Shown here piece after piece: positions 7,029-33,652 of a stretch of DNA of 33,652 nt; the stretch's first letter is position 1; each line of letters starts with the position of its first letter. The notes under the pieces are model-generated. The model ran no database searches. It saw only the letters and a list, made by a program, of their open reading frames with translations, and was not told the DNA's origin. The DNA is from Candidatus Uhrbacteria bacterium RIFCSPHIGHO2_02_FULL_53_13. GTDB lineage: Bacteria > Patescibacteriota > Patescibacteriia > UBA9934 > UBA11717. The translations under genes were made by a program, and so were the position numbers. The DNA is taken from assembly GCA_001791035.1 (NCBI GenBank), contig MGDX01000018.1:1-33652 (forward strand), given 5' to 3'.

Positions 7029-7116
7029 GCGGACGTGGCGGAATGGTAGACGCGCTAGCTTGAGGGGCTAGTGGGCTCTTTTGCCCGTGGAGGTTCAAGT
7101 CCTCTCGTCCGCACCA
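7029..7116 (+). tRNA. tRNA-Leu (GAG)
   Basis: Class II tRNA with a long variable arm: acceptor GCGGACG/CGTCCGC, anticodon stem CTAGC/GCTAG around loop TTGAGGG (anticodon GAG), variable arm GGGC-TCTTTT-GCCC, T loop TTCAAGT, encoded CCA. It reads CUC/CUU codons. Confidence 0.96.
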
Positions 7117-7444
7117 ATAGGGAACTCAACGATTTTTTCGGTGGATTCAAGCGGACGGCGCAAAGCGCCGACCAAGAATTTTTTGGCGGGATTGCAAGGG
7201 AATTCAGAATTTCTGGCGCGCAAGCGCGCAGTGTTTTTTCGCCGAGAAGGAGGTGCGAGCCAAAGATTTCTTTGGCACAGACCTTTTTCGCAAAAAGGTC
7301 TGAATCAGAAGCAATTTTGTCCAAGGATTGAGCGTCTTTTAGCCAGTTTTGGAAAGGTGCGAGCCAATCATTCTGCTTGTGTGAAAAGTTAGAGATTTCT
7401 TCTTCGAGCGACTTCTTTTCAGATAGCAGTTTAGCTTTTTAAGG
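7117..7444 (+). other. Gene-free hairpin-rich spacer
   Basis: No convincing gene lies here. It contains several separate hairpins: CGGCGC-aaa-GCGCCG (7156-7170), GCGCGC-aa-GCGCGC (about 7216-7229, followed by GTGTTTTTTC), and CAGACCTTTTT-cgc-AAAAAGGTCTG (7278-7302). TTTTTT with G/C flanks recurs three times (near 7132, 7178, 7233), and AGGTGCGAGCCAA occurs twice (7251 and 7355). The first two hairpins may terminate tRNA-Leu; the rest looks like decayed repeats. Short open frames across it are not gene-like. Confidence 0.5.
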
Positions 7445-7480
7445 AAAAAAATCTATCCCCTCCGCAGAGTCGCGAAGGGG
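7445..7480 (-). terminator. Terminator of the coiled-coil/TPR unit
   Basis: On the minus strand CCCCTTCGC...GCGGAGGGG forms a stem of about 8 pairs with an internal mismatch, followed by ATAGA and seven T. It lies 20 bases after the stop of the TPR gene. Confidence 0.75.
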
Positions 7481-31561: not shown

Positions 31562-33427
31562 ATGGTTGAAAAACCTAAGAGCTCGGCGGCATCGTCGAGC
31601 AAACGGCCACGACGCCCGCAAGGCGGCGGTGACCGACGCGGCGGACACAAACGTCCGCCACACGCGCGCGGAGGACGCCGCCCCGAGGGCGGCCGCACGC
31701 CGCGACGCGCTACGACGACCGACGAAACGTTCGTCGTTCATCCAAAGGACATCAAGGCGCCGGACAGTGAGGTCCTGCGTGTCATTGTGCTTGGCGGCTG
31801 TGAAGAAGTCGGCCGCAACTGCACTTTGCTCGAGTACGGCAACGACATCATTCTCATTGACATGGGGTTGCAGTTTCCCGAGGAGGATATGCCGGGGATT
31901 GACTACATTATCCCCAACACCGCGTATCTGCGCGGAAAAGAAAAGCGCATTCGCGGCCTCATTATCACGCACGGCCACTACGACCACATCGGCGCCATCC
32001 CACACGTCTTGCCTAAAATCGGCAATCCGCCCATTTACGGTTTGCCCATCACCAACGCAATCATTCGCAAACGCCAAACCGACTACAAGGGATACCCGAA
32101 ACTGAATGTCCACGATCTCAAGGTTGACGACAAAATCAAGCTCGGCAAATTTGAGGTGTCGTTCTTCCACATCAATCACAACATCCCTGATGCCGTGGGC
32201 ATTTTGGTAGAAACGCCTTCAACGCGCCTCGTGCATACCGGCGATTGGAAGTTTGACTTTCATCCCGTCGGCGAAGACCGCGCCGACTTTCAGCGCATCG
32301 CGCTCATCGGCTCCAAGGGTGTTGACGTGCTCATGGGCGACTCGACGAACGCGTCCATTCCTGGACACACCATCTCTGAAAAAGTGGTGGGTGAAGAAAT
32401 CGAGCGCCTCATTGAAAAAGCTACGGGACGCCTTATCATCGGAACGTTCGCCTCGCTCTTGTCGCGCGTCAAGCAGATCATTGAGATGGCCGAGAAGCAC
32501 GGAAAGTTTGTCGCGATCGAAGGATACTCAATGAAAACGAATACGGAGATTGCCAAAGAAGTCGGATTCATCAAATGCAAAGCGAGCACGCTCATCCCAT
32601 CGGACCGCATGGACAAATATCCGGACGATAAAATTGTGATTCTCTGCACCGGCGCGCAGGGTGAGTCCAACGCCGCGCTCATGCGCATCGCCAACAACGA
32701 GCATCGCTTTGTGCGTATCCGCCAAGGAGATACGGTGGTGTTCTCCTCGTCCATCATTCCTGGAAACGAATCCACTGTGCAGAAAGTGTACGACACGCTC
32801 TACCGCCGTGGCGCCAAGGTCATCAACTATCACATGATGGACGTGCACGCGGGCGGACACGGCCGACAAGAGGATTTGAAGCTGATGCTTTCTTTGATGA
32901 AACCGAAGTACTACATTCCCATCGAAGGAAATCACTTCATGCTCAAAGACAACGCCGACATCGCCTACTCACTCGGCTGGGACGCAGAGCACGTGTTCGT
33001 GACAGACAACGGACAGCTGATGGAATTCAAGAACGGGCGCGGTGTGATGCGAAAGGAAAAGGTGCCAACAAACTATGTGTTTGTAGATGGGCTGGGCGTT
33101 GGCGATGTGTCGGATGTTGTGCTACGCGATCGCAACGAGCTGGCGTCCGACGGCATGATTGTCATCATCGCGCAAGTCGAACAGAAAACCGGCAAGCTCG
33201 TGGGCCAGCCGGACATTATCTCGCGTGGGTTTGTGCACATGAAAGAAAACCGCGACTTGATTATGGGCATCAAAAAAGTTGTGCAAAAGTCTGCCTCAAG
33301 TTCAGATCCAAAGAGCACCGCGGACGACGACTACGTGCGACGTCAAATCCGCAACGAGGTCGGGCAGTTTGTTTTGCAAAAGACGAACCGCCGCCCGATG
33401 ATTTTGCCGGTAGTGATTGGGGTATAA
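31562..33427 (+). CDS. rnj: Ribonuclease J
   Basis: A metallo-beta-lactamase/beta-CASP nuclease that starts or completes mRNA decay and matures rRNA in bacteria without RNase E. It has 621 residues. The core begins about residue 70 (EVLRVIVLGGCEEVGRNCTLLEYGNDIILID). The metal-binding motif is HGHYDHIG (HxHxDH), with further ligands in HTGDWKFD and later HAGGHGRQED. The beta-CASP block includes ASLLSRVKQI and CTGAQGESNAAL. The C-terminal domain ends NRRPMILPVVIGV, and the sequence is normal in that part. An added N-terminal region of about 55 residues is very rich in Arg, Gly, Pro and Ser and is likely disordered and RNA-binding. Confidence 0.95.
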   Translation: MVEKPKSSAASSSKRPRRPQGGGDRRGGHKRPPHARGGRRPEGGRTPRRATTTDETFVVHPKDIKAPDSEVLRVIVLGGCEEVGRNCTLLEYGNDIILIDMGLQFPEEDMPGIDYIIPNTAYLRGKEKRIRGLIITHGHYDHIGAIPHVLPKIGNPPIYGLPITNAIIRKRQTDYKGYPKLNVHDLKVDDKIKLGKFEVSFFHINHNIPDAVGILVETPSTRLVHTGDWKFDFHPVGEDRADFQRIALIGSKGVDVLMGDSTNASIPGHTISEKVVGEEIERLIEKATGRLIIGTFASLLSRVKQIIEMAEKHGKFVAIEGYSMKTNTEIAKEVGFIKCKASTLIPSDRMDKYPDDKIVILCTGAQGESNAALMRIANNEHRFVRIRQGDTVVFSSSIIPGNESTVQKVYDTLYRRGAKVINYHMMDVHAGGHGRQEDLKLMLSLMKPKYYIPIEGNHFMLKDNADIAYSLGWDAEHVFVTDNGQLMEFKNGRGVMRKEKVPTNYVFVDGLGVGDVSDVVLRDRNELASDGMIVIIAQVEQKTGKLVGQPDIISRGFVHMKENRDLIMGIKKVVQKSASSSDPKSTADDDYVRRQIRNEVGQFVLQKTNRRPMILPVVIGV

Positions 33428-33517
33428 GAAATGGGGGTTAGTGAGTAGTGGACTAGCGGAACCTCACAAGGAGCCAACGGTCGGAAGTAAACAAATGGAA
33501 GTTATAGTCATCACACT
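33428..33517 (+). other. Spacer after RNase J
   Basis: Gene-free. It begins AAGAAATGGGGGTTAGTG and has short GGAAGT words (GGTCGGAAGTAA, ATGGAAGTTA) like the degenerate spacer after tRNA-Ile. No terminator with a T-run is obvious here; the palindrome just downstream may end the RNase J transcript. Confidence 0.4.
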
Positions 33518-33652
33518 ATGAAACAGGAATTAGCATTTTTGAAACAGAGCGAAGTCCGATGCTCTGCAGGGAGAAAAAACCGCAGATGTAGCCGTAGCTA
33601 CATTGAGGATTTTTTCTTCCGAAGAGCTAGGAATTCGCTCTGTTTCAAGAAT
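33518..33652 (+). CDS. Possible 5' end of a further gene
   Basis: An ATG at 33518 begins a frame open to the window edge (45 codons, opening MKQELAFLKQSEVR). It is preceded at 33503-33517 by TATAGT plus nine bases, the same arrangement as the DsbA-like gene start. However, the large palindrome at 33535-33652 covers most of the frame, and its composition is not gene-like. It may be a real promoter whose gene is broken by a repeat, or chance. Confidence 0.25.
   Translation, partial: MKQELAFLKQSEVRCSAGRKNRRCSRSYIEDFFFRRARNSLCFKN
33535..33652. repeat. Large nested palindrome (about 118 bp)
   Basis: Outer arms from 33535-33553 and 33634-33652 pair over 19 positions (one G-T), including a perfect 15-base core TTGAAACAGAGCGAA. 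Inside are stems TCC/GGA, GCTCT/AGAGC, GGGAGAAAAAA/TTTTTTCTTCC (33569-33579 with 33610-33620, one G-T) and ATGTAGC-cgta-GCTACAT (33586-33603). All nest in one axis, so the DNA can form a cruciform or the RNA one long rod. The last arm ends at the window's final base, so it may continue. Confidence 0.75.

Follow-up and report, generated by a model that had tools for sequence, protein, structure and literature searches.

The window, by which we mean the whole stretch of 33,652 nucleotides that was analyzed, ends in a long palindrome downstream from a gene for an RNase J-like protein (Table 1). Positions 33535-33652 were predicted to form one rod-like fold with five stems in register, which from the outside in are 19 bp, 3 bp, 5 bp, 11+2 bp, and 8 bp. 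The minimum free energy was -66.7 kcal/mol, compared to -26.8 +/- 3.7 for shuffled sequences (z -10.8; 0 of 200 shuffles), and the same positions were the top inverted repeat in an inverted-repeat scan of the window. These results confirm the palindrome with 19-bp outer arms and further inner stems that had been described in an initial reading of the DNA from its letters alone (the sequence-only reading). The short open frame around the palindrome, also described there, exists and is trivial (an open-ended frame of 45 codons).

The palindrome is part of a larger repeat unit that is cut by the end of the window. The window stops at 33652 because of an assembly gap: 30 N directly follow this position in contig C18, and this scaffold gap removes the right end of the element. 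The element is approximately 183 bp when intact, and its left end, at 33503, is 75 nt beyond the stop codon of the RNase J-like gene. In intact copies, the inverted repeats are TATAGTCATCACACTATGAAACAG, with TA at each end, and the order of parts is TATAGTCATCACACTATGAAACAGGA, a short unpaired junction, the hairpin, a second junction, and inverted TATAGTCATCACACTATGAAACAGGA; the sequence after the outer stem is GATGGAGTCCTGTTTCATAGTGTGATGACTATA. The limits originally given for the palindrome are exactly those of a hairpin module described below (model positions 1-127); as limits of the repeat unit they need revision, since the unit starts at 33503 and its 3' end is lost in the gap.

Table 1. 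Features at the end of the window, with their positions and the observations behind each assignment.
Feature	Position	Strand	Remarks
RNase J-like gene, upstream neighbor	31562..33427	+	621-aa open reading frame; name from the sequence-only reading, fits the sequence
Left terminal inverted repeat, TATAGTCATCACACTATGAAACAGGA	33503..33528	+	First TA taken as the duplicated target dinucleotide; genome-wide 24-bp pattern, IS630-like ends, empty site with one TA
Junction ATTAGC, unpaired, from inverted repeat to hairpin module	33529..33534	+	TTAG conserved in alignment A1 (36 copies)
Hairpin module, complete	33535..33652	+	118 nt here, 127 positions in the model; R2 match and fold
Outer 19-bp stem, 5' side	33535..33553	+	Partner 33634-33652
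5-bp stem GCTCT	33561..33565	+	Partner AGAGC, 33623-33627
Conserved internal loop, GCA facing GA	33566-33568 facing 33621-33622	+	GGA/GA in most relatives
Stem GGGAGAAAAAACC	33569..33581	+	Partners 33607-33608 and 33610-33620 (A6 versus T6)
Terminal 8-bp hairpin, GATGTAGC-CGTA-GCTACATT	33585..33604	+	Conserved GA-containing internal loops on both sides; terminator-like scan match
Outer stem, 3' side	33634..33652	+	Right terminal inverted repeat expected next, lost in the scaffold gap

The element is dispersed in its own genome. A search of this genome (G000; 927,564 bases or 0.93 Mb in 41 contigs, 94% complete), of the kind that the sequence-only reading had proposed, found 16 full or near-full copies and six partial copies at contig ends. 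Nine of the copies were at least 96% identical and the rest were about 80-85% identical, which indicates one recent burst plus older subfamilies. Every intact copy was bounded by TA. The 24-bp pattern of the terminal inverted repeat had 17 forward and 17 reverse matches, and the reversed control had none. The copies were spread over varied intergenic contexts and were not confined to the 3' ends of genes, a placement that had been raised as something to check. Several contigs end inside copies (C8, C12, C22, C26, C31, and C38), and the element accounts for part of the fragmentation of the assembly.

The ends of the element resemble those of an IS630-family insertion sequence. Of 73 genomes of the order, 12 contained the terminal inverted repeat, and most pairs there were likewise spaced by about 182 bp; a public match (L063) was in a Candidatus Uhrbacteria genome. 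A related genome (G020) contains an insertion sequence of 1118 bp (L102) whose ends have four and five mismatches in 24 to the inverted repeat in the window. It codes for a transposase of 347 aa with DDE_3 and winged-helix domains, and the matches to PF13358 (86.6 bits), PF13592, and PF13565 were all above cut-off. A 440-bp internally deleted relative in G022 (L108) shares these ends and retains a remnant of the transposase N-terminus, and G029 has several copies of a relative at contig ends, with 73% identity to the C-terminus of the transposase. The inverted repeats are common to the short element and to an IS630-family insertion sequence.

Copies of the element in relatives inserted at TA. 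We compared a copy in G013 to the orthologous empty site in G012 and found a single TA at the empty junction, indicating that TA was duplicated on insertion. A second comparison of filled and empty sites (L064) was compatible with TA duplication. Both were made on copies in relatives. The element is also short (approximately 183 bp), non-coding, and multicopy, with paired terminal inverted repeats. Judged by these features of its sequence, the element in the window is an IS630-type MITE. The shared ends suggest that the MITE would be mobilized in trans by an IS630-family transposase. In its own genome (41 contigs, 94% complete), there was no PF13358 match and no match to the L102 transposase, and the mobilizer may be lacking there, may have diverged too far for detection, or may be hidden in a gap of the assembly. 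An autonomous partner in the same genome is not a strict requirement for a MITE. Thus, the dispersed miniature element named in the sequence-only reading stands, given the many copies in the genome, the TA ends, the empty site indicating TA duplication, and the IS630 partner in relatives, and the opposite case that it had named, a single copy with no conservation, clearly fails, as the element is multicopy and is present in related genomes. Carriage by viruses or phages was also considered and rejected, as the inverted-repeat pattern was missing from viral contigs and phage records had no match.

Some copies of the MITE have changed in length. One (L075:161-423, in G013:C50) carries a palindromic insert of about 80 bp that brings its length to 263 bp. 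Others (L088, L100, L074, L085, and L096) are shortened to 120, 120, 112, 78, and approximately 54 bp and have lost the inner hairpin, and some of these deletions are between short direct repeats, as expected of slippage across the hairpin.

The center of the MITE is homologous to a hairpin module that is also found without the terminal inverted repeats. We built a covariance model of the 88-nt core from MITEs only (R1). R1 had matches in 30 of the 73 genomes of the order, many of them without the inverted repeats, and zero matches in the other 43. The MITE-free hairpins are about 125-129 nt long, and their outer arms differ from those of the MITE, typically TAAAACnTTCAAAATTGG. A second covariance model (R2; 51 base pairs) was then built from MITE-free hairpins alone, all of them in other genomes. 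R2 matched the window at exactly 33535-33652, over model positions 1-127, with 79.5 bits and an E-value of 1.2e-18 (covariance-model E-values are rough), and there was no second match in the window at E<=10. That is, the model trained on MITEs finds MITE-free copies and the model trained on MITE-free hairpins finds the copy in the window. The full-length match indicates that the MITE is two arms of terminal inverted repeat, about 26 bp each, around a complete module. As R2 has a single match in the window, we rejected the kinship that had been suggested between the palindrome and the spacer at 7117-7444.

The module has a wider range than the MITE and is enclosed by more than one kind of inverted repeat. 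R2 had matches in 61 of 381 genomes of the class and in 19 of 380 genomes across the phylum. Of the matches outside the class, L258 has the loop motif in full; the strict motif was missing from the other outlying matches inspected, which are at most possible distant relatives. At least two kinds of terminal inverted repeats enclose the module, one of the TATAG(T/A)C kind and one beginning about TTGACCTTCACCAATTACCTTAAC. Inverted repeats of the TTGACCTTCACCAATTACCTTAAC type surround the hairpin core at L227, L228, and L234, with similar ones at L236, all in genomes of the class, and these elements are probably a second MITE family. The module is not a known Rfam family: at the gathering score only tRNAs were found in the window, and the hairpins gave only weak chance matches. 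The variable outer arms and the occurrence of both orientations within one locus argue against identity as an integron attC site.

The MITE-free copies often adjoin gene ends, mostly those of structured RNAs, with the 3' arm nearly always toward the gene. We tabulated the positions of 73 MITE-free copies, chosen by model score from draft genomes with ORF-based gene calls. In 34 of the 73 copies, a tRNA end lay no more than 10 nt from the 3' arm of the module; for the 5' arm this was so in one copy. Among the tRNA-adjacent copies, 20 share the strand of the tRNA and adjoin its 5' end, and 14 are on the strand opposite to the tRNA and adjoin its 3' end. Five copies adjoin the 3' end of 23S rRNA (L151, L153, L170, L175, and L201), as do L226 and L235 of another family, and L200 adjoins the 3' end of tmRNA; 23S and 5S rRNA at L151 were confirmed with Rfam and the other 23S and tmRNA neighbors were read from the sequence. 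Several further copies adjoin stop codons, by simple ORF calling only. A promoter-like site was upstream of the hairpin in 9 of the 20 copies at tRNA 5' ends (p<0.05), and a terminator was beyond the hairpin in two of the copies at tRNA 3' ends, indicating that the module can lie within a transcription unit.

The MITE-free module is present or absent at the same locus in related genomes. At L189:1485-1610 (G038:C4), the hairpin separates the start codon of a uS2-like gene from its likely ribosome-binding site, and it is missing in G039, G040, and G041. At L191, it is directly after the CCA of tRNA-Arg in G040 and is missing in G038 and G039. There was no clear target duplication at either of these sites. 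Based on these differences, we conclude that the MITE-free module itself inserts. G034 has two copies with 95% identical cores, one at tRNA-Gly and one at tRNA-Arg. As some of the MITE-free copies within a genus are orthologs, not all adjacency is fresh insertion.

The same placements might be explained by a module that is not itself mobile and instead serves the host, as an RNA element by which precursors of tRNA and rRNA are matured or controlled (a processing or protective hairpin) and which MITEs took up secondarily. The flush, one-sided placement at tRNA 5' and 3', 23S, and tmRNA ends, the promoter-like sites upstream of copies at tRNA 5' ends, the likeness among copies next to tRNA-Leu in different species of the genus g21, and the bias toward G.U on the sense strand described below are all consistent with such a function. 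However, the module is sense at tRNA 5' ends and antisense at tRNA 3' ends, which is hard to reconcile with one RNA function. In addition, congeners lack it at the corresponding loci, most genomes of the order do not carry it, many copies are away from RNA genes, and near-identical copies stand at different loci. We therefore consider a non-mobile host element unlikely and prefer a module that inserts.

The fold and the internal loops of the module are conserved. We aligned 36 MITEs end to end (alignment A1) and took the structure for the pairing test from one sequence, L078. In this and the counts that follow, related copies are treated as separate and the cells are not phylogenetically independent. 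Among the MITEs, 93.8% of cells paired with the L078 fold compared to 39-46% with partners slid; there were 341 double-change cells compared to 110 when shuffled, with double-sided changes at 40 of 74 pairs. The window subfamily kept 44 of the 48 core pairs of L078 at 56% identity, 17 of them by double change. In an alignment of 63 MITE-free hairpins, 94.1% of cells were paired compared to 37-44% with partners slid, and there were 814 double-change cells compared to 207 when shuffled. Any set of perfect palindromes looks covarying, and correction of one arm from the other by template switching could yield some of the double changes. The internal loops were less variable than the stems (mean entropy of 0.54 versus 0.99), and the loop columns beside the 5-bp and terminal stems (GGA/GA and GA pairs) were nearly invariant, with fixed spacing. 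G.U exceeded A.C in 19 of the 20 differing core columns of the MITE-free set, in 10 of 14 MITE-free arm columns, in 10 of 14 columns of the MITE terminal inverted repeats, and, as a weaker excess, in 9 of 12 MITE core columns. These results suggest that, in the MITE-free form, selection acts on the sense strand as folded, either RNA or single-stranded DNA, which these comparisons of aligned copies do not tell apart.

The conserved loops bear on the view that the element is an ordinary IS630 MITE and nothing else, with the palindrome kept by template-switch arm correction or by repeated birth, and with the likeness of the MITE-free hairpins accounted for by convergence of long hairpins under a model that weighs structure heavily. 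Every IS630-type feature is present, long palindromes always pair, and R2, with its 51 base pairs, gives modest scores to looser hairpins of other classes as well. If the arms were corrected mechanically, mismatched loops would disappear; the loops are kept, which counts against such correction. The mutual detection of the R1 and R2 training sets, the many genomes of the order with no R1 match, and the strand-specific excess of G.U over A.C all argue against this view as well, and we regard it as improbable.

A bidirectional terminator or REP-type extragenic palindrome downstream from the RNase J gene is least likely of all. In its favor are the intergenic position after the RNase J-like gene and the A6...T6 around the 8-bp hairpin, the one place in the element flagged by a terminator scan, where the T run does not directly follow the stem. 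These points are outweighed by the same element in unrelated intergenic contexts elsewhere, by separate terminators beyond the hairpin in relatives, by a length far above that of REPs, and by the lack of REP-type Y1 transposases (PF01797) in G008, G011, G013, and G034, which carry 12, 6, 37, and 11 R1 matches. The large transcription-end hairpin that the sequence-only reading had offered as the other possible identity has no support as the identity of the element: copies in the genome itself are in all sorts of intergenic positions, and in relatives the hairpin can follow a tRNA and precede a distinct terminator, or follow a promoter and precede a tRNA. We rejected a terminator as the primary identity on the genomic context of copies, and a REP/RAYT origin on length and on the lack of correlation with PF01797.

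Based on these comparisons, we conclude with a probability of roughly 0.8 that the sequence at the end of the window is a truncated mobile element with two layers, apparently an IS630/Tc1-mariner-type MITE around an older and more widespread inserting hairpin module of about 127 nt. The outer layer, with its inverted repeats of about 26 bp, would depend on an IS630-family transposase that acts in trans and inserts it at TA. The module, with its covarying stems and conserved tandem G.A-type internal loops, found throughout the class, would be older and wider than the window MITE, and at least two kinds of inverted repeats would have come to enclose it. Apart from MITEs, it would be an inserting unit in its own right, placed flush at the ends of tRNA, 23S rRNA, and tmRNA and at some stop codons, often within a transcription unit and with its 3' arm nearly always facing the gene, and a putative enzyme may recognize its sense strand when folded, whether as RNA or as single-stranded DNA. 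A more specific proposal, which we hold tentatively and at somewhat less than even odds, is that the module is a mobile hairpin family across the class, possibly the phylum, with a putative enzyme of its own that joins the 3' end of the folded sense strand to the boundaries of structured-RNA genes (tRNA or anti-tRNA, 23S, and tmRNA) in a polar and flush manner with no visible target duplication, and that different kinds of IS630-type MITEs have taken it up as a passenger.

The outer MITE is a further example of a kind already known, and the structured module inside it is the unusual part. An example of this kind is RUP of Streptococcus pneumoniae, a 107-bp MITE for which IS630-Spn1 is the proposed mover (PMC2229807, PMC3049150). 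Like RUP, the element is short and non-coding, with IS630-like inverted repeats, a TA target, and a tight fold as a transcript (PMC2229807, PMC3049150). It differs from RUP in that its insertion sequence was found in relatives and not in the same genome, and in that it encloses a conserved module that also occurs without the inverted repeats. Correia/NEMIS and ERIC are palindromic, TA-ended MITEs as well, and their long-hairpin transcripts can alter neighboring RNAs (PMC2229807, PMC10969869). Their sequences are unrelated to the element, and the available portions of these accounts describe neither a module shared across families of inverted repeats nor a rule of flush placement at tRNAs. The Rickettsia palindromic elements, at 105-146 bp and known for in-frame insertion in genes (PMC2229807), are similar in size, are dispersed by no known mechanism, and are in reduced genomes; by description they differ in being in frame within genes, whereas the module is at gene ends, mostly of RNA genes. 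REPs are dispersed extragenic palindromes too, of 20-40 bp with a GTAG or CGTC tag and RAYT transposases (PMC2817692, PMC3733652), whereas the hairpins here are longer and do not correlate with Y1 transposase genes. Mitochondrial hairpin elements such as the sponge RHEs are likewise described as mobile hairpins in small genomes with no known enzyme (PMC2800124).

The hairpin family is apparently large and undescribed in Patescibacteria. In the literature covered, which included few subscription journals, we found no description of MITEs or structured repeats in Patescibacteria, and on hairpins at tRNA genes we found only the mitochondrial analogues and other bacterial repeats. What is unusual is that the module keeps its fold and loops across the class, in at least two transposon shells, and alone is flush and one-sided at tRNA and rRNA ends. 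The module prompts concrete questions about the enzyme behind its insertion, about its active form (RNA or single-stranded DNA), and about the effect of a 125-nt hairpin on tRNA maturation in cells with very small genomes.

Several loci have more than one hairpin. At L178, L180, L195, and L205, two or three hairpins are clustered among neighboring tRNA genes, in both orientations. At L171 (G011:C35:68900-75500), three hairpins on the same strand have genes for Asp-rich, apparently secreted repeat proteins between them; we rejected a cassette-like array at this locus, as these genes are not cassettes with an integrase. Elsewhere in the window, the spacer at 7114-7460, after a tRNA gene (7029-7113), has several local hairpins and a fold slightly better than that of shuffled sequences (z -2.45), and it does not belong to the hairpin family.
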